DNA of 64,000 nucleotides from contig NC_030382.2 of NCBI RefSeq assembly GCF_001625215.2, forward strand, positions 47,953,364-48,017,363. The letters run 5' to 3'. Below the pieces are notes generated by a model. It was not told the origin of the DNA and made no database searches. It worked only from the letters and a program-made list of their open reading frames with translations. The stretch's first letter is position 1. Each line of letters begins with the position of its first letter. Source of the stretch: Daucus carota subsp. sativus (taxonomy: Eukaryota; Streptophyta; Magnoliopsida; Apiales; Apiaceae). Shown piece by piece: positions 1 to 35,432 of this stretch. The translations under genes were made by a program, and so were the position numbers.

Positions 1-209
1 TCTGTAGTAGAGATGGAATTCGGAACCAACCATCAACTATAACCCCAAAAGAACCAGATTCCGTAAACAACATAGAGGAAGAATGAAGGGAATATCTTAT
101 CGAGGTAATCATATTTCTTTTGGTAAATATGCTCTTCAGGCACTTGAACCCGCTTGGATCACGTCTAGACAAATAGAAGCAGGTAGACGGGCAATGACAC
201 GAAATGCAG
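1..209 (+). pseudogene. rpl16: nuclear copy of plastid rpl16 (intron end plus exon 2 start)
   Basis: Bases 1 to about 40 resemble the 3' end of the plastid rpl16 group II intron. From about 41 one frame reads [17 protein letters not shown] and continues open for 56 codons to RRAMTRNAV, which is plastid ribosomal protein L16. Homology stops abruptly at about 209, where Stowaway-like DNA begins, so the rest of exon 2 is missing. The piece may continue left of the window. The surrounding sequence is nuclear in character, so this is a plastid-to-nucleus insertion (NUPT), not a working gene. The frame is still open, which suggests a fairly recent transfer. Confidence 0.85.
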
Positions 210-337
210 TGTGAAAAGGAAGGAAAAGTTGGGAATTGTGGGACCCCTTTACTATTTTTGGTAAGTTTTGAAATGTAAAGAATTGGATGGGACATCCCAA
301 AAAGGAAACTGTAAAGAATCTGGTGGGACGGAGGGAG
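210..337 (-). mobile_element. truncated Stowaway-type MITE
   Basis: The right end reads GGGACGGAGGGAG followed by TA, the terminal inverted repeat of plant Stowaway elements. The body (fragments such as GGGACATCCCAAAAAGG) resembles the Stowaway-like sequence around 48164-48240 read in reverse. There is no matching left inverted repeat; the element abuts the rpl16 fragment. It is probably a truncated copy. Confidence 0.5.
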
Positions 338-490
338 TATAATACTAAATTCTAATAAGAAAAGACAGTAATAAACTTCATTAGTGGGCTCTGACAAGTG
401 ATAGAGGGGAAGATGATCAGATGATGTAGGCGAGTATAAGTTCCATATAGGTACTTCGAACCCGCTCACTATAATCCAGCTAGTTTGTTA
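338..490. other. short unassigned spacer
   Basis: No open frame, RNA gene or terminal repeat was recognised between the two Stowaway elements. Confidence 0.5.
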
Positions 491-742
491 CTCCCTCCGT
501 CCCAGTCAATTGTATACGTTTTTTTTTCACTGCTCGACACGCTTTTTAAGACTCTTATAAAACATAGTTCTACAACTTATTTTTAAGATTTTCTTTTTTT
601 TGTATAAAAGTATAAATGGTATATTTTTATACAAAAAAAGAAAATCTTAAAAATAATTTACAGAACTATACTATATTGAAGCATTAAAGTCCGTGCCGCG
701 CCCCCGTCCCCCGATGTATACTATTGACCGGGACGGAGGGAG
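491..742. mobile_element. Stowaway MITE A
   Basis: It starts CTCCCTCCGTCCC, ends GGGACGGAGGGAG and is flanked by TA at 489-490 and 743-744, the dinucleotide target duplication of Stowaway/Tc1-mariner elements. At about 578-657 the interior holds a long near-perfect inverted repeat around a TATA-rich centre, so a transcript could form a hairpin. Length is 252 bp; no coding capacity. Confidence 0.9.
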
Positions 743-877
743 TAATTTAGATGGGTATGTAGTAAATTTCCCAAAATTTTTGTTAGGGTGGATAAAATTA
801 TAATAATATATTATTTTGACAAATATACTATTTTTCATGTAAATTAAAGATAAAATTCTAATCTTAAAATTCGTATA

Positions 878-1128
878 CTCCCTCCGCCCCCCTGAATTGT
901 ATACATTAGGGGACGGGGACGCTGCACGGACTTTAATGCTCCTGTAAAGTATAGTTGTGTAATTTATTTTTAAAATTTTCTTTTTCTGAATTAAAGTTTG
1001 GATGTTCTATTTTTATTCAGAAAAAGAAAATCTGAAAAATAAGTAATGGAACTATATTTTATAAGAGCATTGAAATGCGTGTCGAACAGTTAAAAAGAAA
1101 CGTATACAATTAAATGGGACAGGGGGAG
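878..1128. mobile_element. Stowaway MITE B, opposite orientation to A
   Basis: Terminal repeats CTCCCTCCGCCCC and GGGACAGGGGGAG are flanked by TA (876-877, 1129-1130). The internal motifs GCTGCACGGACTTTAATGCTC and GTGTCGAACAGT match element A in reverse complement, so it is the same family in inverted orientation, 251 bp. Confidence 0.85.
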
Positions 1129-1582
1129 TATATAGAGAATATCTCAGGTAAGTTATTGTTTTTTACCTATCCTCATCAAAAGTTCCGTGAGTGTTAGTCA
1201 TTATCAAAATAGGTAGTAACATAATAGTTTTAGTCATCAACTTAAAAAATTGATATAAGATTTATTAAAATTTTGATAATTATGTTATCTCTTCAAAAAC
1301 TTGTAAAACGTGCTCCATTTAGATAGTTTCGTTTATCCCCTTCCATTGCTTCCGTACATGTAACGATTATGTGTAGTTTGATTTAGTGTTTTCGGTTTGA
1401 CCGCATGCTCTTTTAAATATTGTATAGTAAACATTTAAAATGGTTAACAGTAAAAGCTTGTAAGTGGGTAACATTACCGCATGTTATTTTGCAACTGAAA
1501 TTTATAAGATTTAAAAACAAATTTTATTAAATAGCCAACATATCTAAATTTTAAAATATTATATATGATAATGGATAATATA
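1129..1582. other. AT-rich spacer, nothing recognised
   Basis: No credible open frame, RNA gene or terminal repeat is visible. The sequence is AT-rich intergenic DNA between two Stowaway copies. Confidence 0.5.
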
Positions 1583-1790
1583 CTCGCTCCATCCCATCAA
1601 TTCTATACGATTTTTTTCGCGGCTCGACACGCATTTTAATATTCTTATAAAATATAATCCTATAACTTATTTTTAAGATTTTTTTTTTCTAAATAAAAGT
1701 TTAAAAGTTAAAGTTTTATTCAGAATAAGGAAATTAATATGTGTGCCGCATCCTTAACCCCAATGTATATTACTCGCTGGGCTGAGGGAG
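1583..1790. mobile_element. Stowaway MITE C, diverged
   Basis: The left end CTCGCTCCATCCC and right end GGGCTGAGGGAG are mutated Stowaway termini flanked by TA at 1581-1582 and 1791-1792. It shares the GGCTCGACACGCATTTTAAT segment with element A, but its internal palindrome is eroded. It is probably the oldest of the three copies here. Confidence 0.75.
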
Positions 1791-2740
1791 TATTATTTAA
1801 TATTTACAAATTATTTTGAAAAAAATAAACATATTAAGAAAGTGTGATTAGATTCATTAAATTTGTGTGAGGTTCATAAAAAGAATTAAGTAATGCATCA
1901 ATATAAAGTAATTAGATTTATATAAAACACAATACTCCACGTTAAAAATATATCATAATCGAATTTCAGTCTTAAATTTCTAAACTAGAAGAGACAATAA
2001 TTATATAGATGCACTTGGCCAAATGAAAAATAATAATTATGTAGATTGACCAAGTAAAACTATTGTAAAGTTTTTTTTAAATGCCAGGAAAATAGTTAAA
2101 TGTATTATTAGTCATAAGAGTACTCTCTACTTTATTGTAAATTTTTTTCCTAAATGTCAGGGAAGAGTTAAATAAGTTTTTTTTGGTTGAAGGAAGTCAA
2201 ATGTGTTGTTATTAGTGTATAATAAGAGTACTCTCTATTGCCCTTTACTGGTGCTGAGAGTTGAGTTTAATACGTGATGCATGCCTAATAATAGCAATGG
2301 AACATTTTTTACCCGTTCTGATTCACAAATCATATACTCCTACTTTTATAAGATGTATATCATGCATGTGAATGTTATTTCTCCTCATTATACACTATAA
2401 TCATCAATCTGTATAATTCTAGAATATATATGTAACGTTTATTTAGTGACAATATCACCTCTTCAAATTCTAGGTTATGCATTTGTGCAGTTGAAATAGT
2501 AAATCAGAAAAAAGATGAAGCCACCCAAAAAGACAAAGAAGGATAAGAAAAGAGGTGCATGGCATGAGTTAAGACTCATGGGAAGGATTTGTTGTGTCTT
2601 GTCATTATGTGATATGTAATTCCATCCCTATTTAACCTTTTGCCCCATGCTTGCCAACTTGACCTTTGACACTGTAATTTTGTTTTTTATTGCCCTGCCT
2701 TGTTATGATCTTATCTTTACCTGTTTCCCCAATATTGCAA
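1791..2740. other. AT-rich intergenic DNA
   Basis: No gene or RNA signature was seen. It contains short homopolymer runs and an imperfect repeat (about 2030-2110 and 2110-2230, sharing AGAGTACTCTCTA and GTTAAAT motifs). It is probably host DNA outside the proposed Helitron left end. Confidence 0.4.
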
Positions 2741-2744
2741 CTAG

Positions 2745-3437
2745 TATTCTTTGCCCGCTTCGCATGGTTCTTAGTTTAACATTTTTTTTGCAGTATAATA
2801 ATTTTTATTATAAAGAAATAATTTTTATAAAATATAAAATAAAAACTTATGGTTACATGAGAAAATAAATTTTTGGTTTTCCATAAATCCACTGGTTTTT
2901 TAAAGATACGTTGATGTTTTTCTTTTATAGACAATTATGGGGCTGGTTTTTTTATATGTTTTTAACAGCTGATGGTTGATATAGTAAATTGACTAAATTA
3001 TTTCTTTGCAAAAAAATTGTGGATAAAATCCCTAAATTAAATCGTTTGATATAAAAGAAAAGTATTAATTTTTTTTTTAATTTTGTGGACCTTTATTTAC
3101 TTTGTTCTACAGCTTAGGAAATTTGAATCGGACTTTTATATTACATGTATGGTTGTAACGTTACATGACAGTGAATCTTTATTACAGTTTTAAGTGGGTA
3201 ATTAAATGTTGGCAGAGTTGGTTGGCTGTTACCACTCCTTTACCAAATTAAGCTTCTTCGGTGTTTGAAGAAACAGTTCACTTCTCTTCATCCATTCGGC
3301 TTCCAAACTCGTCATCCCTGGTAAGAAATGAGTTTTATTCTTCTAATTTTATGCTTCCTTTTTTGTTGTGAATCTGATGTTATATGTACAAATGATTTTG
3401 GTTGCATGTCCTGTTACTTTAGAAATCGAAGAGAACC
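2745..3437. other. upstream region of the B3 gene
   Basis: AT-rich DNA. A thymine-rich reading frame around 2647-2868 is short and repetitive and is not credited. The 5' untranslated region of the B3 gene may include an intron: GTAAGAAATG at about 3320 looks like a donor, and TTTAG at about 3418-3422, just before the ATG, is an acceptor candidate. Confidence 0.35.
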
Positions 3438-4897
3438 ATGTCCATTACCCCTAAATTCGTGAAATTTATCGGGGAATCAGATTTGGCTGAAGATGAAATG
3501 GTAAGAGAATTAACTAATTTTGTTTGCATGTAACTGTTCGGTTTGTTTAGACATTAGCTGAGCACTTGTTCTTTAATTTTTCAGCTCCTTCCACCCCTGT
3601 TTCGGGCCAAAGTGTCGAATCTATTCCCCACGGCTGTGCAGCTGTTCTTCCGTAATGGGTTCAATGTTTGGGTTGGATATGATAATGACGATGGAGTGTT
3701 CAAAGGTGTTGGAAAGATCTATCGGAAATTTGGTTTGAAGAAAGGGCAAACGTTATTGTTCGAGTACGTGAGCATGTTCAACTTCAAAGTTTTCATTTTC
3801 GGAGCTGACTTAACCGAGATTAACTATCCAGTAAACCCTCCCATCCTTGATTGGAGTCATGGCACAGAAGGTATTTAACTTTCTTTATCAATTTTTTTTG
3901 TTATATTTTGATGAATAAGTGGTAGTGAGTAATACTCTATATCTTGTGTAATTAGATGTTAAGCATGATGGAGGTTTGAAGTTTCTTTATGTTCTTAGCT
4001 GTGGCCAGGAGATTGTTGATGAGGTGGTGAGTACAGGGTTACTTGGATTATAGATAAATAATCTTTATTATGTACATCACTCTAGTACTAACTGTTATAT
4101 ATTTTAGGGGGTACCCTGGGGTCTGGTAGCTGGTTTTGGTAATGCTATTCCACCAACAGTGGAATTCATTTTGAATGATGGGACTATGTTCCTTGGAAAA
4201 TTCATCCAGCAGGAATGTAAGCTCACCGGTTTATACCGACTAACTAAGCTGAACTTAAGTAAGATTCAGGTGCTGGTGTTTACTTATAATGGTGACCGTA
4301 CCTTTAAGATTAATATCATTGATATATCAATGACTGAAGGTCTACAATCTGCTGTTGAAGGGGAAGATGGTAAGTCAATTTGTATCTAATATAACTTAAT
4401 CTAATTTGCCACTGTTATATTAACTAATCTAATTTTTGTAATTTATATTTGTAGTAGGAACCTCTGTAACACCTCCAAATGTATCACTGGAGGATCCTGA
4501 CCAATGTACGTACTTTGAATTTGAGATTAAGCCATTTCACATGCTGAAATACGCCCACGGAGTGGTACGTTACTACGTCTACATGTATAATTTATATTTA
4601 AATCCCCTTATTTTCTATATTAATGATTCAATGTGTGTAATATTTCAGGACATTCCTTCCTTCTTCAAAGGTTTGACTGATCTGTGGGGTAAGAATGATG
4701 TCATAAATGTTTCCAAAGGAAGAAGGTGCTGGGCTTTAGCTGTTAAGAAAAGGTTTGACTACAAAAGGCCTTCAATTCTTGATGGATGGATCGAGTTCCG
4801 GGATGCATTGAAGCTTGAAGTTGGTGATGTATGTGTTTTCAGCATGAAGGGGAGAAACATAAGGGAGTTCAGTGTCCAGGTTATTAGGAAGATGTAG
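3438..4897 (+). CDS. REM-like protein with three B3-type DNA-binding domains
   Basis: Six exons with GT-AG introns join to an open frame of 346 codons: 3438-3500, 3585-3870, 3956-4026, 4108-4369, 4455-4564 and 4649-4897. The start is MSITPKFVKFIGESD. Domain 1 (about residues 5-105) has the B3 patterns FRNGFNVWVGYD and YRKFGLKKGQTLLFEY. A weaker B3-like region follows at about 140-215 (WGLVAGFG to KINIID). A third lies at the C-terminus (about 245-345) with IPSFFKGL, WALAVKK and LKLEVGDVCVFSMKG. Plant B3 proteins of the REM group are nuclear DNA-binding proteins; the target of this one is unknown. It is convergent with the downstream RPA-like gene, with 471 bp between stop codons. It is either a host gene beside the Helitron or cargo inside it. 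Confidence 0.75.
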
Positions 4898-5368
4898 TAT
4901 GTTTTCGATTAGTCTGTGTATCTTATGATGCTTATGCAAAACTAATCCTTATGTGCATGCTTAAGTATTGGTGAACCTGATGAATTTTATGCAGTCTATT
5001 ATGTTGACATTGACGTTGCAAAATGAATATTTGTAAGATGCTCATGTTTGTCTAATTAAATGAAGTACAATTAAGCATGAAAGAGTAGATAAGCAGCAGT
5101 TAAACATTCTTGTTCTACATAGTTTGCATAATAGAAATAAATGACATAACATGAGTTATAAGTTTTAGATAGATTGTAGACAATCTCAAATGAGTAGATA
5201 AGCAGTACTTAAACCATTGAAACTTGTGGTTCTGTTTTTCCTGAGCTCAATCATCTTCTTCACCTATAATTTTTTGACAAATTGTAGACAATCTCAGATA
5301 AGCTGCATCTTGGTGAATATATATTGTTTTAGTTGGCATGAAATGTCTTGTACCTTAGGGGATAAAAC
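4898..5368. other. spacer between convergent B3 and RPA-like genes
   Basis: This 471-bp stretch serves as the 3' flank of both genes. It holds diverged duplicate segments (GAGTAGATAAGCAG at about 5083 and 5191; ATTGTAGACAATCTCA at about 5173 and 5281). No GC-rich hairpin followed by a Helitron-type CTAG was found here, so the element does not obviously end between the two genes. Confidence 0.4.
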
Positions 5369-7497
5369 TTATTGTCCGGTGTAGTCCAACTGTGAAATGT
5401 CATCAAGATGGCAGGACGATGATGATGGCTGTAGATGTCATATACAGTTTTTATTAAAATATGTAAAATATATTATCATAAATATTAACAAAATAATAAT
5501 AATTGTTAACCTGTGCTGTATAGCTATCACTCTGTTGCACTGAATAGCCCTGTTGAATTTTAGGCTCCTCGTATTCAAATCCTGGGTACATGTCAACAGC
5601 CAGGAATAGATCACTATTTTTCTCTATGTTTTCTTTGCTGATTTGAAGCTTTAGAGTGTACCCCTGACCTATCATGACTTTAAATTCCTTTGGGAAGCTT
5701 AAGTGCTGTGAAAAAGTGTGAGCTCTTTTAGTAAGTATATTGGTAGTAAATAGTTCCAATAAATTAGTGGTGCTAATCAATATTACACATTGTAAAAAGT
5801 AATTTACCTCAGCCTCCATATCAAAGGCTGTTCCTTCGAGCAATCTTCTAAATGCTCTGTCCTTCAATTTAATCTTGATGCTTCCAGTTTCATCCGATCC
5901 AATAATTTCAAGAGTGAACCTTCATCATTTACAGTAAAATGGTTAATATGTCATTTTGTAAAACTCTGACAATATAATTAGAAGAACTCTTAGGATTACT
6001 TTTTGTTTGGTTCAGGCACAATCCGGTCGCATGACTTGCAGTAAAAATCTTGATTTCGCATACTACATGTTTCATAACAGGAGGTGCAAACAAAATGCAT
6101 CCACTGTGATTTTTCTTGAACAGCTTGTACTGTAATCTTGGTTACAACGTCATCCTGAGACATATATTGATGCATAAATGAGATAGATCTGCAATATATG
6201 TCTGTAAAATATAATAGCAAGCCCCTATAATTTATAATTAGCTGACCTCAATGAAATTTTCTCCTAGCTGTAAGATATCACTGATTTTGCAGAGCTTGTT
6301 TGATTTGGCCTTGCCAGATAGAATGTGCTTGCCAAATCCGGGTTCTTTTGACCTGCGACAAAGTCAGTTATTCAGTGCAAATTATGTACTTAATAATAGT
6401 GAGGTTCAAAGTCCAGTCTGGGTAAGAAACTATACATTTTCCTTAGCTTGTGAACACTGTGATGATCATAGTTAACATAGAACTGTGTTGGTGCGTAGTT
6501 GCAGATATCTATCTGTTCTGAAAACATATTGATTATGTGTTAGTACTTTTCCAGCAGGTATAAAATTTTTATGATTTATAGTGTAACTCACCATTCCATT
6601 TGGTGATTCTCCCACTTGCAATAATGAGTATTACTGGTTCCTCCAAATCAGCAGTCATTGCTTTCACAAACTCTTCGGCAAACGAATCCCAGAAGGTCAC
6701 ATTTATCTTGCGGCTGTAGTTATTTTATTGTATTATTAGACTTATTATGAGATGCATTATGAACTGCATAACTAATTTTTCTAAAAGTTAAGAACTGCAC
6801 TGGTTTGATCAGTCATTTACCTCCCATCAGATAGTTTGAACTTGATGTTCTTCTGTGGCTTCCCATGCCGGTTATTGAAGTCCTTTATTTTGTCCGTCTT
6901 TGGGATAATACCTATAACATCTGTGAAAGAACATGCACAAATAATTACCATAACATATTATCCTGGATTAATATTGAAAACGACTTTAATAGCCACTAAC
7001 CTGTTAAGTAGGTTACTTGTTCTGCAGCATGTTTCAGATCAGAAAACTGGAAAAAATCAAAGACATTCTTGGGCACAAATGTCTGAGATTCGTCAAGGTC
7101 CGTGATTCTAGTATCTACAGTGAAGATAATTTGCCGGTCCATTGGAACAGGGCGAAATTTGTCTTTCTCTGTGTACTCCTTCACATCAAAATTCTTTATC
7201 ATGTAGATTTTTCCAATTTGAATAATCCGCCCTATTTTATCAGCTAAGTGAGCTGGGGCGTAAGCTTGCATTCTACAGTTCTACAAACGTAAAAGTTTAG
7301 TAAAGTAAAAAACATAGTGAAGTAATTTGAGGTTTAGGAGATAATACCTTTGCATCTAAAAGCAAGATATTGAAGCCTTTGTAATTTTTTCCTGTGTTAC
7401 TAAAAGATTTCCATTCTCTTATCACTCGAACTTTGATTTTCCAATCTGTTCTCCCTAGTTTCACGCTTCTTAGTGGATCAGAGACAGTGTTTGACAT
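5369..7497 (-). CDS. RPA1-like (DUF223-type) ssDNA-binding protein, Helitron-encoded, copy 2
   Basis: Ten exons on the minus strand (7497-7348, 7280-7001, 6920-6821, 6713-6592, 6517-6436, 6352-6247, 6154-6000, 5919-5808, 5705-5511, 5428-5369) join in frame to 453 residues. The N-terminal OB-fold region begins MSNTVSDPLRSVKLGRTDWK, the DUF223/RPA70-type opening. The middle holds KIYMIKNFDVKEY and FTVDTRI, then VIGIIPK. A zinc ribbon follows at about residues 303-322 (C303, C306, C319, C322), then IIGSDETGSIKIKL, as in the C-terminal domain of RPA large subunits. Exon 5 uses GTATAG as its donor, the least certain junction. Such proteins bind single-stranded DNA, and plant Helitrons often carry them. 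It lies downstream of its paralogue on the same strand. Confidence 0.75.
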
Positions 7498-7830
7498 GTT
7501 TGTTTTCTTTGGTGGAGAAAATTTTCTTTGTTTTCTTACAGAAGGAAAATGTTAAGTAGTGTTCAAGACCTGCTTTTAAGTTGAGGTAGTTGCATATTTA
7601 CTTATAGTTATTGCAATTTGGTTTTAGTAGGTACGCAAGCTTTAACTACAAACTGAGCAATAAGTTTCAATGTTTTAAGGAAACATAAGGTATACAACCT
7701 CAGACGAATATTACAAATTCAGTTCAAATAGTACTTCATTGTTAAGCAAAAGGAAATTTGAGTTGATGCATTCATTGTCATTAGGACATGTCCTCTCCTG
7801 TCAGTTTCTTCTTCTACGTCAACATGTCAC
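7498..7830. other. 333-bp spacer between the two RPA-like genes
   Basis: It contains the promoter side of the downstream RPA-like gene and the 3' end of the upstream one. No further open frame or repeat was recognised. Confidence 0.4.
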
Positions 7831-10185
7831 CTAAGGCTGTCAATGAAAGCAGTATTAGATATAGTGTACAAAAATGCTTCAACGTATATGTGTGATTCTA
7901 TACTTACTTTTTCCTGCTTAATGTTTTTCAGTTTTGGTGGGTGTTCATTAACTTCTTTTTCACTTTCCTTCTCCACCATGAACCTCGGTCTGGTCTTGTT
8001 CGTTGAGTTCCCAGTCTGCGGGCTACCACCCTTTGAGTGATTTTCAAGAACCTATAAATAATCATTTAAAGTTTTACGTTGAGGTGAAATAAGTAATTCA
8101 ATTACAGATAAATAACAACTTACATTTGTAACTTCAGTCTGTGCTTGAATCTCATTTTGTTGCTGTTTTGGTGAATGGGTTGCGCACACATCCATCACCT
8201 CATAAATTTGCAGTGCTTTGTAAACTTTGGACCCCTCTTTGAGATTTTCTTTGGTCAAAGCAATGGTGAAATTGTAGTTTTTTTTCAGAGGAAATTTCAG
8301 TAGTTGGGGGAATTTATCACCTTCTCCAGACTACATATTTAAGGCAGAGTAAGGTATGTACGTAACGATTATTAGATAGTTAGTTGAGATCTCGGATAAA
8401 GCACATAAAACTCACCTCCTCAATATCCAACTCCACCTCGTATATCTCCTTGCCAATCAAACGAACAATTTCTTCATTAGGCCAGATAACAGGAATAATA
8501 CCGGTTTCATCAGAGCATAGAGTATATAGCTGGAACCTGAATTGGAAATGACATATACAAAATTTATGGCAATACTAATATGTACATCCAACAGAAACTA
8601 ATTAAAATGAATTAGTACCTTTTGTCAGGATAGGGCATGACCCTGCTACATTGAGTACACTTGTAAACACCATCCACTGTTAAAACTTCTATGTCACATT
8701 GAGTACAATAGCAAATGTACCAATTCATCTTCTCATCCACCTTCTTCACATTCAGCATGCAAATCACTCGTTTCTATTCAACCATATAAACATTAATAAT
8801 TTGGTTACATATTTATGTAGTGAAGACTATTTCTTTGTGATTTTAACGTATTATATGTACCTCTATGTAATCTTCAGTAAGTTTTTTCAGTTCACTTATT
8901 TTCATTGTTGGTAGAACTGGTTCTGGTTCCTCATCTTTGCTTATATCTTTTTTGGTATAGAAATTTGGCTGGCCATACCTATAACAAAAATGATTACAGT
9001 GGAAATGTCATTTAAGTACTAACATAAGCAAGAAGTTGAATATGCAGTCTAACAATAACCTTTTCCTGAGCTTGTGAACGGACGGGTGATCAATGTTCAA
9101 GTAAAACCGAGTCGCGGGGAAATGGGTCAAATACAGTTGCTCTGCGGTTCAAAGGAAAAAGTGTATGAGTCAGTGTTTCCTCGAGGACCAATTAAAAACC
9201 AAATACATGTTAAAAACTTACTATTATATTCACTGGCTTTCGCACTTGTGATGATAACAATTAGTGGGCGTTCTGCTATTGTATCAATTTCCTCAAGAAA
9301 CTTGTCACCAAACTCATTGAAAAATGTTACATTTATGGAAGTCCTAACAAAAAGAAATATAGGGAATCTCATATCAACAATAAATAGAGGACTTGATGTA
9401 AATTGCAGTTGTTGTCAAATTATATAAGCTCACCTTCCATCAGTTATTGTCAAGGGGACATGGGATTTCTCAACTCCATCCTTCATATATACCACTTTAT
9501 CTTCAATATTCTCTATCACTCCAATGACATCTAATAAAAAGAACAAAAGCTCGCATATTCAATTCCGACCTTAGCCTATTGTGTAGAACTTTAAATGGGG
9601 CATTCAAATAACAAATGAAAGATAATGTTACCAGTTAGGAAACGGTTATCATTTTTTAAACCATCCATGCACTGTAAGGTGTAGAAATCGAAACTATAGG
9701 GAGCAATCTTCAAACCCAGTCCTGTGTCTTTTTCAATCTTGGTTTCATTTGAAAAATAAATATGCTTCACATTTCTAACTGCACGGTTAGTTTCGTCACC
9801 ATTATAGTGTGCAACCTTAAAATTCTGGAAGATATATATTTCTCCTTCTTTTAGTACATCAGCAACTACGGCAGAGAGTTGAGCGCTTATGTAAGCATGA
9901 ATCCTTTCACTCTATTAATTACAAAAAGTGCAGTTAAAATTAGGACAAAGTTGTAGCATGATAGTGTTAATTTATATGATGTAGTTATATCACTTGAGCT
10001 GTACAATCATGAGCACATTAAATGTAATTTCTTACCGAGTCATCGAACGCTATGAGATTGTATCCCTTGAACTCGCCTGTCTTCTTATTTATGCTTTTCC
10101 AGAGTGTTTGTGCTCTTACTCGAATAACCCAATCCTCTCGGCTGTCATCCAACCTGCTAAGAGATTCATATTTGTTGAAGCTCAT
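7831..10185 (-). CDS. RPA1-like (DUF223-type) ssDNA-binding protein, Helitron-encoded, copy 1
   Basis: Minus-strand exons 10185-10036, 9911-9632, 9530-9434, 9343-9222, 9141-9060, 8978-8861, 8773-8619, 8536-8416, 8330-8124 and 8051-7908, plus a 6-base last exon ending at 7831, give about 493 residues. The ATG at 10183-10185 was chosen by alignment with copy 2, which starts with the same MS. OB-fold motifs: SREDWVIRVRAQTLWK (N-terminal), GEIYIFQNFKV (second fold) and INVTFFNEFGDKF. The zinc ribbon at about 304-325 (C306, C309, C322, C325) is followed by FQLYTLCSDETG. Exons 1, 2, 4, 5 and 7 match copy 2 exactly in length (150, 280, 122, 82, 155), showing duplication. Its C-terminus is longer and charged (KQQQNE, EKESEKEV). 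The tiny last exon is uncertain; read-through would end a few codons later. Confidence 0.75.
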
Positions 10186-10891
10186 TTTAGGCAGATGCAA
10201 GAATTTTCACAAAATTCTACTTCCTTCACTATTCTCAGATCTGATGATTATACGTTGTTTGTGGATATTTGAGATTTAGTTGTGTGGAGGAGAGTGTGCC
10301 AGCAATGCATGTACCTTCCTGGAACTTGAAAAAAGCACATATACAAATTACCTATAAACTCAAAACTGCACTTGTTAAAATTTGTGCATAGTTACAGTAA
10401 GGTAGAAAAAAGTATAATATATTTTTCCCCTATATTACCTTTGAGGTTATATTCCATAATTATTTTGGAAAATATTTTAGATTTTCAATTGTTCTCATTA
10501 AATGATAAATAATGGAATGCTTAGACAAAAGACAACTATTGAATTTATGTTCCTTCACTTAACAACATGCAAATAATGGTTAATTCTTAAAAACCATCTC
10601 ATTATATTCTGCAAATTTACCTATATAAGAGAAAACATAATCACAGTTTAAACGATGCATGGCGGCAATTACAAAAGATGCACTGGCCTGTCAATTAATA
10701 TTTCTGAAGTAAATGAACTTAAACATAAGACAAATAATATTTCACTGTTATCTCCGAGAGATAGCAAACACTTCAGATGCACAAAAAGGGTCACAACCTG
10801 TTTATGTGCCTTACAAAAAATTTCAGTGTATGCAACATGTAATGTTCTTGCATGTTACCAAAAAATTTAGTTTCAGCTACATCTAATGAAA
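10186..10891. other. spacer between RepHel stop and first RPA-like gene
   Basis: AT-rich sequence holding the RepHel 3' flank and the promoter of the first RPA-like gene. A 71-codon plus-strand frame at 10655-10870 has no recognisable features and was not called. Confidence 0.4.
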
Positions 10892-13800
10892 CTAAATGAC
10901 AGGTAGATTGTAAAATATTTCCTTGTAAACCACATTATCTGTGAGATTGGTTGCATCTCCTTCTTCATTGTTGATAAACAACTTCAAGCCTTGAGGAGAA
11001 GTCACACGACTTATAGCCACGTACAACTGGCCGTGAGTGAAAACAGGCTTCGGAAGAAAAAGAGCAACCTTCTCCAGAGATTGTCCTTGTGCTTTATTTA
11101 TGGTCATGGCGTAGCATACCTGCAGAGGCATTTGCTTCCTGCAAAGTCTAAATGGCAAACGCGTCTCAGTAGGAGATAATTCCATTCTAGGGATAAAATG
11201 TTTAGTTCCCTTGTAACTGCCAGAAATCACTTCGCACTCAACACAATGTTTGAGGCACTTGGTGACCTTCATTCTTGTGCCATTACATAACCCCAAGGTC
11301 TGATTCAGGTTCCGAATCAGCATCACAACAACACCCACTTTAAGCTTCAGTTCATGCAGAGGAAGGCCTGGTATATTTATCGAGTTCATGTACTCGGGTG
11401 GGAATGATTGCATTTGATCTCTTTCTGTGCCAGGGAAGTCCTCTGCTGTGTCAACACTGAAATAAGAATGGATTTCCCCGGGAATTTTCTCCACTATTAG
11501 AGAATTTACATGACCAACGGTCTGGTTGGTTGGAGTGAGAATTGCCCTCTCACTCAAATAATCTGAATTCTGATAATTTTGAAGAAAGTCTGGAAATGTA
11601 CTTTCAATCATTTGATCAACTGTGTTTTCCCCTTGTAAGTTGCAGAATTCTTCAGGAATTGCGATTTGATTGTTAGAGCCTTCAGCATTAGTGACAGGTG
11701 TGTTCTTTATTTTGCCATCTCCAACATCTAAGACCCACTTTGCGAAATCTTTCAAAGATGATACCTCAGCTGCATCTCTTCCTTTATTTAGGCGCATATT
11801 GTGTAAGAGCTTAAAGACAGTAGCTACTTTCCACAGCTTAGATCTTGTGATACAGGAAGACACAATTTCACCCTGTCCAGCACGCGGTATAACCGGTAAA
11901 ATTTGGCGAAAGTCTCCACCAAGAACAACAGTAATACCACCGAAAGGCATGTGATATCTATCTGGACTGACAGCTTTCATGATATCTCTGAGAGAACGGT
12001 CAAGACATTCAAACGAATACCGGTGTTGCATGGGTGCTTCATCCCATATTATCAGACTTGTCCGCTTAATTAATTCTGCTATATCGGACTGATGGGAAAT
12101 AGCACACATGGAATGGTCATCAAGTACTATTGGAATTTTGAATCGAGAATGAGCGGTGCGTCCACCGGGCATAAGGGTGGCTGCAATACCCGAAGAAGCA
12201 ACAGGAAGGACAATTTGTCGTTGTGATCTCAGTTTAGATATTAATGTCCTCCATAAGAAGGTCTTTCCACAGCCACCACTGCCGTATACAAAGAACAAAC
12301 TCCCCTTGTTGTTTTCAACTGAATCCATAACAGAGTTGTATACGGCCAACTGTTCTTTGTTGCATTTGGAAAATAGAGATTCAAATTCTTTTTCCATCTC
12401 AGCTATATCGTAACTGGTTTCCTCTATGATCAAATTGTTTGAATTGCAATCCAGATAACTGCTTGGGGGCTGGGGCATTTGGTTGTAATCTTTAAGTGAC
12501 TTGCCAATAGACTTTAGGAGTTTGTGAATTTCTGCAGGTCAACAAAAAATATAGTTTCAATTACAAATTAACAAAAAATCATATAATCTTTAATATACAA
12601 ATAGGAGATGTTGATATGGATACCTGCAAGGGCAAAGAACTCTTGTTGTTTGTCATTGAGGATAAGATGTTGATTACCCGTTAGCTGACGTTGCTTCAAC
12701 ATTAAATCATCAACCATCTCCTTCCAGAAAGTTTTCCACAATAAATTAAGATCACTGACCTTGCAATTAACCATGATGTGAACAAATAGTTCACGGATTT
12801 GCTGTGGGAAGCCACATGCTGAACATTGTTGCAGAACCTCATGCCATTCCTTGTCACTGTCTAGAAGACCTAATTCTTGACAGGCCTCATGAAAGGTAGA
12901 GAAGACAGTTCCATTGACTGTCCTGAGACACTCAAATGAAGTTGGTCCACGAATCTTCATCAGCAGGAGTCTTAAATACCAAAGCTCCCCAGCACTGTGA
13001 TGAGTATATGCCAACCTACCAATCTGATTGCCCCGTTTCCTCAAATTCCAAATGTGATCCGATTCATTCCAGACGTAGTGTTGAGGTATCTCATCGTATA
13101 GATATTGCCGTGCATTGGGATCATTGGCATTGAGAAAAAAGAAGGCCTCCAACTGTGTCATTTTCTCCTTCTCTCTGTTCACAATCTTTGTCAGCGGTTC
13201 ATTGGCTCTGAAGGTAACATATTTGTTGCCAGGCAAGTGAAAGGAAAGGCGCAACACTGACAAAGAACGGTAGTGTATAGTATATCCAAAGATACGATAT
13301 GCAGCCTCAGCTCCACATATGTATCTCCCATCAAAGAAGGATTGAATCTCATCTTCCGGTTCTTCAATGTTATCACACGATTTGTTGGTATTCTTCTTTC
13401 CCCGAATTTCAACGGTTGCTCTGTCATGTCCCTTTAAGCAATATTTAAAGAGATACTTCAAACTCCGGGCATGTGCACATATTTCAACATTCATATGGCA
13501 CTGATATTTCACCAGTAAATCTCGGTTGTAGGGGACGACCCATCGGTTATCTAACTGTACTTTACCCTTCTTGGCAGTAATATTTGTCTTCCTGCGCTTA
13601 TAGATTGGGAAGCCTGACTGATCAAACATGGTTGCAGAACAATACCTGCAATCAAAAGATAGTCTGCTGAAAACATGCTGGTAAAACAGTTACAACTACA
13701 TTTACGGTGGGGGCATGACTAAGAGAAGATGTTGGCAGGTTATGGACATACAAAACCATTAAAATCCATCAAGTCAAAAAGAACATGAAGGCCAATTTTC

Positions 13801-16800
13801 TTTACAACAGCTGATTAAATCTCATTTAATCTATAAAAATGAACCAACAGACCTCAATGTATACAAATGAACCAACAGACCTTAATGTCCTAAACTACAC
13901 AGTAAACATGAAAATTCCAAAGATGAAAGACTATTATGCAATCCACAACATTTATAAACTATGAGGTTATGCAAATCCACCAAGTATACTATACAGTATC
14001 TTTAACAACAAATCATGCCATATAAAAATGAGTAAACAGACCTAGTAATATAATCCAACAATAAAGTCTAATTAAAAAAACCAAAAAAAACATGCCACAT
14101 ATAATTGAGTAAACAGACCTACTAATATAATACAACAATAAAGTCTAATTAAAAAAAAACAAAAAAAACACAGCATTAAAAAAAACCCAACTATTATAAA
14201 CTATGTGGATTTGTTGAGGACATACTTTTTTGGAAAGTGTCGGATACACTTTTTCTGTTTCATGCAAGGTGATTTGGGGTGATCGTGTCCACAGGGGCCA
14301 TGCATCATGAAAGCCTGAACTGCTGCATGGCCAACAGGATCTAAGGCTGGATCAGGAATCTCAGCACTAACAAATTGATCAACATTGTTCTGTAGCTTCA
14401 ACTTTGATTCAGAATCCAACCATATTAACATGTGGACGTGCGGAAGCCCTCTTTTTTGAAACTCAACTACGTACATCACTGTCCACGTAAAAGTTGAGAA
14501 ATTATGTAGTCAAACTGAGGTATTGAGAAAAAAAGTATGAACATGTCAGAATAGTTAAAATTGTACCTCCAAGACACACACCAAAGTATTTATTCTTCTT
14601 GATATCTTCAATTAGTTGCTCAAGTTTTAGTTTGAATACACGAGCTATAACATCGGGAGAGTTCTGAGGTGTGCAAGGTGGAATTAATTTCATCATCTGC
14701 TGAATTTCATCCCATATGGGATTGGTTGTCATAGTGAGAAAGATATCAGGATGGCCAATAAAACGACATACAGCTAGTGCATCCTGAAAATTCTGCTGCA
14801 TGTATCGCCGTGAACCAAGAAAGCCAGCCGGTAAGATAAACCCTTTGCCTACATTGTTGGAATCACCTTTACCGGATCTTACAGACTTGCAGAGATTAGA
14901 ATAAAGATCAGAGCGCAAAGTTGTTTGATTTTTACGAAACCACCACAAACGGGCTTGTTCGATAGTACTAAATGCATCCACCATATACTGCTGGTAAAGA
15001 CGACCTCCAAGACGCGGAGTCATCCCTGCGAATTCAGTATTTCATCAATATTAAGATAAATGTGATCAAAACATAGAAGAAATATGATGCATTATGTTTC
15101 AAATCTGGAAAAAAAAAAAGCACAGGTTGTTTACCTTCGTTTGTACGAACTTGGAATTTATAGGAATAATACTCCTTCATTGAAATGCATTCTCTGATCT
15201 TGTTCTTTTTCTTGTCTGACTTACCAAAGGGAATGTCTTTATGGAAACCATCGCCACCGTGAGGAAATAAAAGGGGATATTGTAAGGACATGAGCTTCGG
15301 ATGTATGTCGGTTATCCTTTCCAAACCCCTTTGTTTAGAATGTAAAACAATGTCACGCTTACCCTCTGTATCATCAAGATCACCCACCATAATACCGGCC
15401 ACCTCGTCCGAGGGACCTACATGGTTTTCTCTACCACTTTCAGAGCGTGAAACCTTTAGTGTAATTTCAAGATCTTTCACACCATGTAACTCATAACGAT
15501 CACGTGCTGATCTAAACTCCTTCACCAAGTCATTAGTCTCATCCAACATCTGCTTTAATCCTTCCACAATCTCGACATCCAACTCATCACCACCATCAAC
15601 GGTTACCCATTTCAATCGATTTTGGACTTCATTCTGAGTGTCGTAAATATATAATTGGCAGAATTTTGGGTCTTCACCCTCATCAGGAATAAGTGAACCA
15701 AATAGATGGTGGTTCTGACCATTTAGTCGATATACATAAGGAGCGCCGCCACAATTAACTGAATTGTCAACTTTACCACCAGTGGATGTAAATGCAAAAA
15801 TACTATTATAAAGACGCACACCATCTGTGAAACGCTTAGACTTCTGGGGATCGTTATGTAGCTGCCATATATAAGAGGGTGTGGGTTCCTCTCTGGGTAA
15901 TTGGATCTGTCCCTTTGAGCAACATGTAGAAAAAATCGGTGTACCCTTGGTAACGCACTTGTTGATACGTTCTTCTTTCCACATCCAAGCTTGGCAGAAG
16001 GAACATTTGACATTTGGAGGTCCCAGTGTTGCATACTCCTTGACAACTGACACATTTATAAACCAACATTAGACAGTAAACTCTAGTTTCTCTATGTAAG
16101 GATAGTAAGTGGACCAAGTTACCATGTCCGCTGTTAATGTTTTCATCACAATCTTCATTGACATAATCAATATCATCGTCTGCTGAAATATCACTGTCAC
16201 TATCCTCAAAGCCATGAATCTCAGGAATTTCTACAAATTTGCAAAAAAAAAAGAAACAATAAAATTCATGTGTTTATCAGTAAGCAAAAAATTATGTTCT
16301 GGACTTGAATTGTGAATGCAAACCTGTCTGGTTATAAACATCAGGATCGGGATTCTCACGTGAACTTTCATTGAAATCCAGAACACGCTTGGGTATTCCA
16401 AACTGATTGCCATTTAATTTCTCATGCATAACAGTCGACTCTGAAATTCAAAAATTCAATTAACGAATATATACAAAATATGCATGGGATTATAAAACAA
16501 AGCAGGGCAACAAAAGACTACTAAATACCACTATTAGAATAATTTCTTGACGCAGAAACACCAGAATCAAGAGAAAATGGTCTTCCTGCCATACTTGGTG
16601 TCAACGGAGTTATCCTTGTACTGTTCATGCTGCTGTTTTGATCATGTACACGTAAAGATGCCTTCTTGGATTTATTACTTTTCTGCATGGACTGGTTTGG
16701 AACCCTTACATTTTCTTTCTCTGCTGCAGCAAATCCTAGGGGTGTGTAAAACTAAACTCATAAGTACAAATGTCATTGAGGTAAAAAAATTAATAGATAT

Positions 16801-17717
16801 TGAATAATCATTAAGGAGGAAAAAATACGTTTACCCTGAAATCGAGAGTTGGACTTGGATTTCCTTGCCTCAACATTTGTAAGAGGTGTAACAAATGCAG
16901 GCTTCTGATGCATATCCCTGCCAAGACTATCGGGAGTATGTGGACTGTATTCATTATTCCCATCAAAGCCAACTGACTGGCGCAATTTCTTCTTATGAGG
17001 TGAACCATGGTGGATTTTGTTCGAACGTGGTAACGTGTTTGCTGTCAATGCAGCCGGAGAACCAAGGACATTGTATCCATCTCTTCCCTGGGGATTGACA
17101 TATGGCGGGGTTGAAGTGTTCCCTATGTTCTTCCTCTTATGATTTCCATCCTTGTCGTGTGATGAATGTAATCTAATGTCAGGGGTATTAGTACATAATG
17201 GAGCAAAAACAGCCCTCTTTTGTGTCACTGGGTTTTTATCTTTTCTTCGGTCGGTTTGTGGTGTTGAGGAATCATTAACTAATTGCACACTACTTTCCAC
17301 CATGTTCAAGTCTGGAATCACTGTAGGAAAATACATAAAAGTTGGAACCAAAAAAAAGAGTCCTTGACTTAAAAATATGCACAATTAAGATCAAAACACA
17401 AACACAAACTGGTATTTACAATCGGACACAAAAATAAATGTAATATATGTGAAAACAAAATGGGTAACATCCAAAAACATAAAATCAATTTATGCAACAT
17501 CAATTAATTTAATGGAACACATTTATTACAGCATAAGCAAACTAATGTCCCAAACATATTTATTACTCAATCATGGCAAGATATGAATGCTTGCATCTAC
17601 TGAAAACAACAGTATAAAACGGGTCTCGATATTTATTGCTATAGAATAAAATGTCTGAGTGAGGAGATACTCACAGGCGTCAGTCACCCCTTGCATTCGG
17701 AACCCATCCTCTGCCAT
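10892..17717 (-). CDS. Helitron Rep-helicase (RepHel)
   Basis: Ten exons join without any frame break to 5247 bases (1748 residues): 17717-17675, 17320-16835, 16735-16529, 16440-16324, 16230-16123, 16046-15135, 15025-14567, 14478-14226, 13645-12624, 12531-10892. The start is MAEDGFRMQGVTDA. The N-terminal third is low-complexity and basic, then acidic. A Cys-rich finger follows at about 330 (KCSFCQAW). The Rep nuclease has the HUH pair LPHVHMLIW (His about 791 and 793) and the paired catalytic tyrosines in KYLFKYCLKG (Tyr about 926 and 930). The Pif1-type helicase has Walker A GSGGCGKT (about 1286), Walker B IIWDEAPM, LGGDFRQILPVI and TINKAQGQS. It would nick, unwind and transfer one strand during rolling-circle transposition. 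Nothing seen suggests inactivation. Confidence 0.88.
14030..14183. repeat. 77-bp tandem duplication in a RepHel intron
   Basis: The segment starting GAGTAAACAGACCTA at 14030 recurs at 14107 with a few changes, ending in A-rich tracts. It lies in the intron between exons 8 and 9 of the RepHel gene and does not affect coding sequence. Confidence 0.7.
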
Positions 17718-18384
17718 ATTATGTTATATATTTATATTCACCTGACCTAGAAAAATGATGAAAAAAAACAGAGTTTGATAAGCAAAACATTAATATGAAG
17801 AAGAAGCAATAAAAATGGCTACAACCCAGCATGAAAGAAGAAGCAAATCAAAATATTACAATGGAAAGAAATTGATTAGCCGATGGAAACCATTGACAAA
17901 TCTTGCTTTACTGTGGAAAATGAGATTTTGAAGAGGAGTTAAAGAAAGGTGAGGAAATCTGACCATTAAAGACAAAGTCGAAGTACAGGTTTTCGAAATG
18001 AAGGGCTTGATCTGATGCCACGTTCCTTCGGTTCGTACATTTGAAACCGGAACACCGGATGAGACGGTAGAAACAGCTGGAAGACTCTGCACAAAAGTGA
18101 AAAGAGCTCGTGCATATGTGCTTTGTGATGTGTACGTGTCTGAATTTGGAAGTCAAATGGCAAGATGTGGTAAATAGTGCAAAATATAGGAGGACAGACT
18201 GGTAATTAGCCATGCAAATAGCCTTCAGGCAATATCATTTAAAGAGATATATCTTATCTCAAACTATGGGTATTTGCATATCAGCAGCAGATAGCATCTA
18301 CATAAAATACATACATAGATCTCAAAGATAACAATTTTGGATACACATACATATACATAGATATTGTAGTATAATAGGTAGAGA
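17718..18384. other. 5' end region of the Helitron upstream of RepHel
   Basis: Between the RepHel start and the proposed minus-strand 5' terminus lies about 670 bp with no convincing coding exon. Small minus-strand frames at 17856-18213 lack family features. The region probably holds the RepHel promoter and untranslated leader. Confidence 0.45.
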
Positions 18385-18914
18385 TTGAGCAGCAAAACTC
18401 AGGGGGGATGAACTGGAAATCATAAACAAATATACATAGGTAGGAGAGTATAACAAAAGGTCCACACTCTTGTGAACCCCATCTACTTGAATTTTTCTCA
18501 TCTTCTTCTTCACCCCCTGCCCCACCTCATGTACCCAGCCCACAACACCCATCACAATATTTTTATTTTTATTTATTTATTTTTCTCTCACACGCACAAA
18601 CACACACCAATGAATCTTCCTCCCTACTTTCTCTCACGGGTTGACCCACCCGTTTCAGCAGATGTCAAGTTTTATCTTCAACATGCTAACTCAATATCCT
18701 CAATAATAATAATGCAAATGTATCAACATGTATTAAATAGTACTTGTAATACTATTCAATCTGTACTACATGTCCAAAACCAAAACGTAGGGCAAGACTT
18801 TGCTTTCCTATATATACACATGTCTATCTACACGTATTCAACCATCAACCAAACCATTACTCACTCATTTCCTTTCTTTCTTCATTCTTCATCTATACCA
18901 AAACAACATTAAAA
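18385..18914 (+). promoter_or_regulatory. upstream region and TATA box of the TEM/RAV gene
   Basis: TATATATA at 18809-18816 lies 99 bp before the ATG at 18915, a normal plant spacing that leaves a leader of about 70 bp. A CT/CA-rich tract at 18540-18610 precedes it. The Helitron terminus at 18384 sets the left limit, so any promoter elements further upstream are now separated by the element. Confidence 0.55.
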
Positions 18915-19988
18915 ATGGACGGAAGTTGCATAGATGAGCAAAGCACAACCAGCGACTCATTGCCAATCTCACAAACATCCTCACCGCCTTCCATTATATT
19001 CACTTCTTTACCCCTCAAAAACTCCCCCGAGAGGCTATGCCGAATGGGGAGCGGCGCAAGCGTTGTTCTCGATTCCGAGAACAACGGCTTAGAAGCGGAG
19101 TCACGAAAACTCCCCTCTTCTAAGTTTAAAGGAGTTGTTCCCCAGCCAAACGGCCGCTGGGGCGCTCAGATTTACGAGAAGCACCAGCGGGTTTGGCTGG
19201 GCACGTTCAACGAGGAACATGAAGCCGCGAAGGCTTACGACATCGCGGCCCAACGCTTTCGGGGCCGCGATGCCGTAACAAATTTTAAGCCATTATTAGA
19301 CACTGAAGATGAGACTAATTTTCTCAACTCTCACTCGAAAGCCGAGATTGTAGATATGTTACGAAAACATACCTACAATGACGAGCTGGAGCAAAGCAAA
19401 CGTAACTGCGGTTTCCAAAAATGGAGTCACGGTAACAGCATGTGTGATAAAATTGTTAGCGCGCGTGAACATTTATTCGAGAAGGCCGTGACGCCTAGCG
19501 ATGTGGGGAAACTAAATCGGCTAGTGATCCCGAAACAACACGCCGAGAAGCATTTCCCGTTACAGAACGGAGCCACCTCGAAAGGCGTTTTGTTAAATTT
19601 CGAGGATGTTGTGGGGAAAGTATGGAGATTCCGTTATTCATATTGGAACAGCAGTCAAAGTTATGTGTTGACTAAGGGTTGGAGCCGGTTTGTTAAAGAG
19701 AAAGGATTGAAAGCCGGTGATGTTGTTAACTTTCAAAGATCGAGCGGACCGGATAAGCAGCTTTACATTGATTGGAAAGAGAGAACCGGGCCCGGTTTAG
19801 TCACTGCAGCTCCGGTTCAGATGGTGAGGTTGTTCGGTGTTAACATATTTAAGGTACCGAGTCACGGAGTTGCGGGTGTTAATAACAATGTTAACGATGA
19901 TCAAGTTAGTTTTTGTAACGGGAAAAGAAGGTTGGAGATGTTAGGATTAGACTGTAATAAGAAACAAAGAATTATTAATGTTGTTTAG
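18915..19988 (+). CDS. TEM1: RAV/TEMPRANILLO-type transcription factor (AP2 plus B3)
   Basis: Intronless, 357 residues, normal for the RAV family. The AP2 domain (about 68-126) has [32 protein letters not shown] and GRDAVTNF. The B3 domain (about 186-290) has [18 protein letters not shown], the HAEKHFPL segment and [20 protein letters not shown]. The short RLFGV motif at 305-309 is the repression motif known from this family. The N-terminus, with SSTTSDSL-like serine/threonine residues and [16 protein letters not shown], resembles Arabidopsis TEM1/TEM2, which delay flowering by repressing FT and gibberellin synthesis genes. That role is inferred for this copy. The gene is in single-exon form with its own TATA box, and no damage is visible. 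RAV1-like is the alternative name. Confidence 0.93.
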
Positions 19989-22900
19989 AATTTATGTTTT
20001 GGTACGGCGGTGAATCGGCAGCCGCGACGGCGGTGGCGTTGGCCGTTGTGACAGTGGTTTAAGTAAGGTTGCAAGTTGGATGAATTGTATATTAATTGGT
20101 AGGCAAAAAAGCAGCCGAACAGAGCTGTTTCAAATCTTGTAATAGAAAAAGGCAGAAATAGAAAATAATTGTCAATTTGTAACATGTTCGTTATCTGAAT
20201 AATGGTATATTATTGCATTATTTAAATCCGTTTCAGAAGCAGTGTTTAAGTTTAATTAGTATAATATTCCACTTGTTTAGTGTGTCGCTTTTCCATCAGA
20301 TATTTGTTTATTGCAGATCAAGTATGAACGATATCTTCGTTTTCAATTATGGAAAGAAAAGTATTGCCCTGATGTACGTATTATCATGCACTGTGTGTAC
20401 GTATACTTGTTTCATGAAAATGAATATATCTAATATTTTCGTGATCAGTAAGCAGCGGATCTCCTCTTTTTTTTAAAAGCTGGTGGACGCGTGTGAATTT
20501 TTTTAAGATAGGAGCGGCTTGATTCGACATTGGTGTTTACTCTGATACATTTACGATATTCTTTCGGCATGAATTAATTTCAACGAACAAAAGCTTTCAC
20601 TTTTGTAACAGAACTACACACAACACAGATGAGGGAACATGAACTAAAATTAGGTGAGATGATGAAGCACACGTTTAAATAATGCACATACTGTTTATGC
20701 ACTTTGGGTAAACATATCTTCTTGCTTTTTAGTTTTCACTAACATCAATCTAATAACGAGATTACGACAGTGATGGACTATGTAATTATCAATGTCATTT
20801 CGCACACCGTTATCTACTAAAGCAATATATTACATTTTACCAGTACGATTATGATATGATAATCATCAATTGCACAATAATAAAGAATTGAATTTGTTTA
20901 ATTTAGTAAATACCGGTCCATGTGTGTGTGCATGACAAATTGAAATTGAATTCTGGTATACATTCTGGCAGCTTTGCTAAACTTCTACAATGACCTGCTT
21001 AGTACTTTATCATCTTCAAACATCTAATGTAAAACGTGACAGCTTAGATTACACAAATTTGGCCGAGTTGTTTTGGATAAAGTAGAACTCAAACAATAAA
21101 AAGATCATTCGAGTTGCTCCCTCTACCCTAGATTGTTTATCTCGAAGGTTGATGACTTGATACGTATTTTAAATTTTTTATAACATATAATTTCATGACT
21201 TTTTTCTTCTGAATAAAAATTAAATATTTATATATTTATAAAATAGAAATTTTTTAAAATAAATTATAAAATTATAATTTATATACATTTTAAAATGTAG
21301 TCGAATACTCGAGTAATGTAAATACGGTATAAAAATGAAATATACATTTATTACATGGAGTGTAGCTTATGTTTGCTTTTGCTTGGGGAAGTAACTCCCA
21401 ATTTTAATTTTAACAACGCTCATTTTTTACATTGCATAGAAACTTATCCTCGGCAGTAAAAATAAGAACACAAAATACAGCAGCAGATGTCTAGAGATGT
21501 GTGATACAATCATACAGCAAGATCCGGTCTCCAAAATATCAGGTAGCCCAGGGGTGGTGAACCATCTCGGTATACAAACTATAAACAATGCAAGGCACCT
21601 GCCGTTTTCATATAAGTTGTGAACTCCTTGTCATTAATTTAAGTGTGCCCCTAAACAACTTGCATGCACATTTTTTTATTTATTTTGACAAGTGTTTGAC
21701 TGATTGTACCTTATTACTCCACATAACTCTTCGTAATAAACAATTATTATTTAACGGAATCAAAATCGCATTGCGATATTTTCTCGATAATGCCATGCTT
21801 CAAACTGTTCAGATTCATGCACTGAATTGAAACGAGAGGCTCGAATAAGAGGATGTGGGATCTGGCATCCAGTTTTTGTCTAGAAAAAGGCTGTACTTGT
21901 TGTATCACACCCGACAATTTAATTACATAACATTATTTTCGATATATGATGAAAATAAAATTGAGAAAGCAGAATTATTGAACGGGAACACATGCACACT
22001 CTGTATATTCAAGTACATTTTTGGTACGTTGTATTTGGTAGCCAAGTGAAGTCTGAAGTAGATCTTTATACTATGTTATTTTAAGCAGGAAATAATATCT
22101 GAACTAATAATTGTAACATTCGTTCCAACTGAATAGGTGCTTTTGACCAACATGAACTGATGAACCTAGCTGCTTTACAATGTCAATATGTATTTATATA
22201 TTTCTGCAATCGATGGTAAATCCTCATTTAATTGTTCAAGTTTTAGTCTTGGCGACTTGTTTTCTGTGTAATTTCGTGTATATGACAATACTGAAGTTTG
22301 ATTTTTTGTCATCTTTTTGACAATTTTTGGGAGGTCTTTTGACCATTACAACTGCAAATGAATGTAGCTTAATCTAGAACATGTAGTCCATAAATTTACG
22401 ATTTAACTATAAGGTTTATATACTGAAAACACAAATATTCAAACAACTGTTGGATTAAATTAAATAATAAAAAAAAGGAAATAGTAGGGTGGTGGAGTTA
22501 TTATTCTAGGGAGATGGTTGTGTCAGCTATGTCAACTTGGCAAGTGTGGTACTTATCAAGCAACTTCCCACGATGACCATCTCATGATAATCCAGATGTA
22601 GCTGTCTGTGACACGTAGTCTTTCAGAATATCACACTTTCCGGTCCTCTGTATTTGGGCTACGAGTTGTTTCAGTTTCCTTGATCAGGCCAGACCAACTA
22701 ACAAGTATAGCCCATATGATTCTACATGTACATGGGCCAGTAGTCATTTCTAGCCCAGATTTACCAGAAATAAAATGACTGTCCTATGTAATGTAACATA
22801 TTCCCTTTAACTTAATATAGCAATTATATATAGAACATCCCTTTAACTTAATATAGAAAGTTTGAATGGAAAACTAGCGAAGTGTGCATTTCATAATTGA

Positions 22901-35393: not shown

Positions 35394-35432
35394 TTATTTC
35401 TTAAAAAGTCACTATTTTCATTCATTTATTTA

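Follow-up and report, generated by a model that had tools for sequence, protein, structure and literature searches.

The window (the whole stretch of DNA that was analysed, 64000 bases long with 34.7% G+C and no N) reads as plant DNA, with a Pfam-confirmed AP2+B3 gene and other neighbours that look plant-like by eye. A Helitron element is proposed on its minus strand, along which a RepHel gene and two RPA-like genes follow one another; a B3-domain gene lies on the opposite strand towards the proposed 3' end, and a RAV-type gene stands outside the 5' end. The features are listed below.

18384 to 2741, minus strand: Helitron element by its proposed ends, approximately 15.6 kb, putatively autonomous, plant type
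18384, minus strand: proposed 5' terminus, TCTCTACCTATTATACTAC preceded by A
10892 to 17717, minus strand: RepHel gene, 10 exons, 1748 amino acids; Pfam Helitron_like_N, PIF1 and Pif1_2B_dom; match to Helraiser (7lcc)
RepHel exons 1-5, minus strand: 17717-17675, 17320-16835, 16735-16529, 16440-16324, 16230-16123
RepHel exons 6-10, minus strand: 16046-15135, 15025-14567, 14478-14226, 13645-12624, 12531-10892
7831 to 10185, minus strand: RPA-like gene 1, 11 exons, 493 amino acids, DUF223, RPA OB and RPA-C
5369 to 7497, minus strand: RPA-like gene 2, 10 exons, 453 amino acids, laid out as RPA-like gene 1
3438 to 4897, plus strand: B3-domain gene, 6 exons, 346 amino acids, open; Pfam B3
B3 gene exons, plus strand: 3438-3500, 3585-3870, 3956-4026, 4108-4369, 4455-4564, 4649-4897
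2741 to 2769, minus strand: proposed 3' terminus, an imperfect hairpin around GCGAAGCGGGC, then CTAG followed by T
18915 to 19988, plus strand: RAV-type gene (AP2 and B3), open, by Pfam; ATG at 18915, 530 bases from the 5' end of the element

The first-pass annotation of this DNA had described a near-complete Helitron in which a RepHel gene of 10 exons and 1748 codons and two downstream RPA-like genes all remain open. The RepHel model was reproduced with the exon 7 donor at 14567, and neither it nor the models of the RPA-like genes (493 amino acids, 10185-7831, and 453 amino acids, 7497-5369) contain an internal stop; given also the matches to Helraiser and Pfam described below, the description of a near-complete Helitron was borne out. 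The gene inventory was right for the three minus-strand genes, but a fourth open gene had been overlooked, namely the B3-domain gene on the plus strand (3438-4897), whose model is likewise free of internal stops. This gene is convergent with RPA-like gene 2, their stops being 471 bases apart, and a 3' end at 2741 would place it within the element.

Elsewhere in the window, two short Helitrons lie head to tail on the minus strand (35389-34157 and 34156-33204). Their common ends are 84% identical over 155 and 83 bases. Both have a G+C hairpin of 5 pairs and CTAG, as well as a 47-base stretch that overlaps a remnant resembling RPA exon 1, and their length suggests that they are non-autonomous. 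At position 13 of the minus strand an A is followed by TCTCTACTA, a canonical plant Helitron start; it extends beyond the left end of the window and may be due to chance. A MITE-like stretch recognised by eye (35430-36100, minus strand) ends in similar inverted sequences (GGGGTGTATT...AATACACCCC) and contains a tandem duplication of 194 bases with 99% identity.

RepHel and the two RPA-like genes

Residues 327-1736 of RepHel matched bat Helraiser (7lcc) with E=1e-273, the match extending on the Helraiser side to residue 1494 of the 1496-residue chain; this comparison, and that of the full protein with Pfam, was run on a 1743-residue model. In the alignment the HVH of RepHel falls on HAH, YLFKY falls on YLFKY and the P-loop lysine falls on position 1068, where the solved chain carries a mutation to Q. 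This register, together with the Pfam matches to PIF1 and Pif1_2B_dom, agrees with the HUH pair, two tyrosines and helicase noted at first pass. In the 1748-residue model the motifs are found at positions 791 (HVH), 926 (YLFKY), 1286 (Walker A), 1363 (Walker B), 1407 (III), 1447 (IV), 1677 (V) and 1706 (VI); these strings were identified by inspecting the protein and bear conventional motif labels, so they give positions only, and the evidence for the helicase is that of Pfam and the Helraiser alignment.

An exon 7 donor at 14582, used in the 1743-codon model, was replaced by that at 14567, 15 bases further on, which gave a better fit to Helitron_like_N (183.1 bits compared to 167.1 bits for the 276/281-residue piece). 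The Helitron_like_N match is continuous over the exon 6/7 and 7/8 junctions. Eight of the nine RepHel introns are in phase 1 and one is in phase 2. Residues 1-326 are without a homologue, and the exons encoding them were placed by open frames only. Intron 8 (580 bases) contains an overlapping pair of 87-base repeats (14007-14170, minus strand), 90% identical and 77 bases apart.

The product of RPA-like gene 1 matched DUF223, Rep_fac-A_C and REPA_OB_2, all above the Pfam cut-offs. For RPA-like gene 2, DUF223 and DUF4503 were above the cut-offs, and matches to REPA_OB_2 and Rep_fac-A_C were under them. A C-x2-C ... C-x2-C motif, resembling a C4 zinc finger, is located at residue 306 of the first protein and residue 303 of the second. 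Seven of the nine introns of RPA-like gene 2 are at the identical codon and phase as in RPA-like gene 1, and the remaining two have the phase seen there, one falling in an alignment gap and the other lying two codons off. Since nearly all intron sites are common to two proteins that are only 30% identical (across 419 columns), the splice models are credible; one intron map in two diverged paralogues is good evidence that the models are right.

Splice sites were selected manually with an eye to keeping the frames open, so every intron in the models is GT-AG by construction. Host codon preference, derived from three host genes in the window with the introns' own base make-up as background, was highest in the predicted frame for all four genes. 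The margins were small, and in some single exons the predicted frame was not the preferred one. The negative codon score of the introns follows by construction from that background.

A Rep part with the HUH pair and two tyrosines is fused to a Pif1-type helicase, not one but two RPA-like genes lie beside RepHel, and the 5' TC and 3' CTRR are present as motif matches only. Support at the sequence level comes from the gene content, the open frames, the terminal motifs and the register of the catalytic residues with those of Helraiser. We put the probability that the element is a plant Helitron with a RepHel and two-RPA gene content at roughly 0.85, and its description as near-complete, putatively autonomous and carrying three open genes is well supported.

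Open frames and the age of the copy

Under neutral decay, all four frames (9132 coding bases) would stay open with a probability of 5% up to a divergence of 0.32-0.48%, equivalent to 0.46-0.68 My at an assumed rate of 7e-9 per year; the estimate further assumes an indel share of 0.05-0.1 and a transition bias, and ignores hits to splice sites. By this bound the copy is either young or still selected. The openness of the B3 frame by itself tells little, its bound being a divergence of 2.9-4.4%.

Recent or current activity is possible on the evidence of the open frames. A rival reading is that the copy is dead and was recently silenced, with frames that are open only through short decay, and we rate this at somewhat below even odds. 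Since neutral decay allows open frames at low divergence, openness alone is no proof of activity; the bound given above suits a dead copy, and so does the imperfect hairpin at the proposed 3' end. Set against this, the two RPA paralogues keep the same layout despite their divergence, which suggests prolonged selection on both of them in the lineage of the Helitron, although not necessarily in this copy.

No second copy of the element was found by blastn at E 1e-3 in the rest of the 64000-base window, and a protein-level search outside the element gave one region under E 0.01, which is located at 33.7 kb and resembles RPA-N. Searches with RepHel exon 9 against viral contigs and against bacterial/archaeal contigs gave 12 and 12 pattern matches respectively, none of which was confirmed.

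If the element behaves as Helitrons are generally understood to, RepHel would nick the DNA and become covalently joined to the 5' end through its HUH/two-tyrosine site, its Pif1-type helicase would unwind one strand, both RPA-like proteins would coat the resulting single strand, and the transfer would be ended by the 3' hairpin and CTAG. We infer both the expression of these genes and the mobility of the element. A Helitron copy with all known transposition genes open would be a candidate for a source element and could serve in a transposition assay in plants as the substrate; few such assays are known.

The termini and the B3-domain gene

At 18384 the element strand starts with TCTCTACCTATT after an A. 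The 8-base start TCTCTACC is weak when taken alone, with 3 occurrences in the window compared to 0.99 expected and at least 3 in 6 of 100 shuffles. ATCTCTAC has two occurrences on each strand, those on the minus strand being at 18384 and 13, and the 30-base 5' terminus has a single occurrence in the window when up to three mismatches are allowed. At 2741 the element strand ends in ...GCGAAGCGGGCAAAGAATACTAG before a T. The proposed ends are flanked by A and T, and the empty site is predicted to read ...TTTTGCTGCTCAA joined directly to TTGCAATATTGGGG...; the terminal bases and these flanks agree with the rules given in the available portions of PMC4683698 and PMC3288121. The insertion would have taken place between A and T, without target duplication if typical of Helitrons, and 530 bases upstream of the start codon of the RAV-type (AP2+B3) gene as measured from the 5' end, and so it may sit in the promoter region of that gene and possibly affect the promoter.

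The 3' terminus had been rated only plausible in the first-pass annotation, a judgement with which we concur. It is the weak point of the element model; 2741 is a plausible end and the best 3' candidate found, its hairpin is poor, and we consider it fairly probable that the element ends there. A G+C hairpin at the right distance was present at three of the 23 minus-strand CTAGT sites (2741, 33204 and 34157), the latter two being the ends of the two short Helitrons. The hairpin at 2741 is imperfect, folds weakly and lies 9 bases before CTAG, where approximately 10-12 bases before the 3' end is expected; it scored 7.5 compared to 15 at the other two CTAGT ends. Its fold of -1.1 kcal/mol was matched by 105 of 200 shuffles, while a fold of -6.3, matched by 8 of 200, was obtained for the Helitron end at 33204. 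The site ranked 103 of 227 minus-strand CTRRT sites by fold energy and 106 of 723 CTRR sites by hairpin score. Possession of some such hairpin is not rare, as it was seen at 31 of the 227 minus-strand CTRRT sites. Among the 464 CTRRT sites on both strands, 2741 ranked 4, 13 and 3 against three maize end patterns and 5 against the 33204 end. No RNA family reached its gathering score in positions 1-20000 of the window.

The B3 gene could instead be an ordinary host gene, with a Helitron that stops short of it, or whose 3' end has been lost, and with RepHel and the two RPA-like genes as the mobile part, which we regard as unlikely. B3 genes are common host genes in plants and the hairpin at 2741 is no better than shuffles, both of which favour this reading. 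Three CTRR sites within 1800-5368 (3828, 4206 and 3581) also outscore 2741, but all three fall within the B3 gene and none is followed by T. By the criterion used, none of the CTRR sites in 4898-5368, between the B3 and RPA-like genes, has a G+C hairpin, and 2741 and 417 are the only hairpin-bearing sites among the 16 CTRRT sites up to 5368; the site at 417 ends in CTGAT with its hairpin 17 bases away. Both this reading and that of a dead copy are compatible with a Helitron having a RepHel and two-RPA core. Very improbable is a third reading, by which the open frames are an artefact of free splice-site choice over a decayed element: many GT/AG pairs are on offer and the sites were hand-picked, but three of the exons (1640, 1022 and 912 bases) are open unspliced, the profile and Helraiser alignments run on across junctions, and the two RPA-like genes have a common intron map.

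The whole B3 protein matched the B3 domain (PF02362) in its last third with E=1.4e-8 (35.0 bits, cut-off 30.1). When the protein was cut in three, the third unit matched at 2.9e-6 (27.6 bits, under the cut-off of 30.1) and the first at 0.059, and the second was unmatched; units 2 and 3 were 22% and 18% identical to unit 1 in alignment. Phase-0 introns at codons 21, 140 and 264 fall, by eye, at like places in the three units. On sequence comparison one B3 domain is established and there are probably three in all. The best PDB sequence match was VRN1 (E=0.24, not significant), and the protein may be REM-like. Single-sequence structure models were poor (mean pLDDT 38.8 for exon 2 and 64.9 for exon 4); none of the 355 PDB matches of the exon 4 model reached E <= 0.001, and none among the best 50 of the 355 was named a B3 protein. 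The predicted structures give no support to B3 domains 1 and 2. A search of the B3 protein against viral contigs gave 3 pattern matches, none of which was confirmed.

To return to a Helitron ending at 2741, RepHel and the two RPA-like genes are normal content for such an element, whereas the B3 regulator gene is unusual and is probably carried. The opposite-strand gene would then be cargo, perhaps acquired by read-through past an older 3' end. It is improbable that the gene is a standing part of the Helitron family rather than a chance passenger, its REM-like protein binding element or host copies and altering their silencing. A transposon-borne B3 protein of this kind could act like VANC or as a competitor of host REM factors. 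In the available portions of the sources, VANC of the plant VANDAL elements directs hypomethylation of related copies (PMC13317346) and host REM factors bring in RNA polymerase IV to produce small RNAs (PMC12270911, in the text of which the word 'helitron' occurs 0 times). If the B3 gene lies within the element and is conserved between copies, the Helitron would carry an open multi-exon regulator, possibly touching small-RNA silencing.

Comparison with known Helitrons

Putatively autonomous plant Helitrons usually contain RepHel together with RPA, and copies made up in this way have been described before. As in Helraiser of bats (7lcc), the HUH pair, two tyrosines and Pif1-type helicase are in one protein; Helraiser is an animal element, and the solved 7lcc chain contains only RepHel. 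An extra gene is also present on certain fungal Helitrons, but the gene (TET/JBP, thought to help transposons escape methylation according to the available part of PMC12730594) and the kingdom are different.

The Mothra sister-family of rice resembles the present element in having RepHel beside an RPA-like gene. Nine RepHel plus RPA-like sequences of 8.1-15.5 kb are described in the available portion of PMC4683698, with their openness unstated; the RPA of the Mothra mother element has eight exons and 472 amino acids, and the Mothra termini are TC...CTAG, between A and T. Each element of that sister-family has, as far as the same portion goes, one RPA-like gene, whereas there are two here. The text of PMC4683698 does not contain the term 'B3 domain'.

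No description of a B3 gene on a Helitron was found among the titles and abstract openings listed for the open-licence literature searched; PMC10881582 contains both B3 and Helitron words, in unrelated senses. If the boundary and conservation hold, the B3 cargo would be a new feature for such Helitrons. The terms 'B3 domain', 'full-length' and 'complete gene' each occur 0 times in PMC3288121, the available portion of which describes the maize elements ZmhelA1, ZmhelB1 and ZmhelB2 (12.2-14.6 kb) as putatively autonomous, with Rep and helicase without a frameshift. ZmhelB1 and ZmhelB2 encode Rep, helicase and RPA without a frameshift, RPA being in the same ORF, and ZmhelA1 and ZmhelB2 carry captured gene fragments (PMC3288121). 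Judged by that portion, the present element differs from maize helB in that its RPA-like genes are separate rather than within the same ORF, and, where the cargo of the maize Zmhel elements consists of gene fragments, it would carry an open B3 gene if that gene is inside the element.
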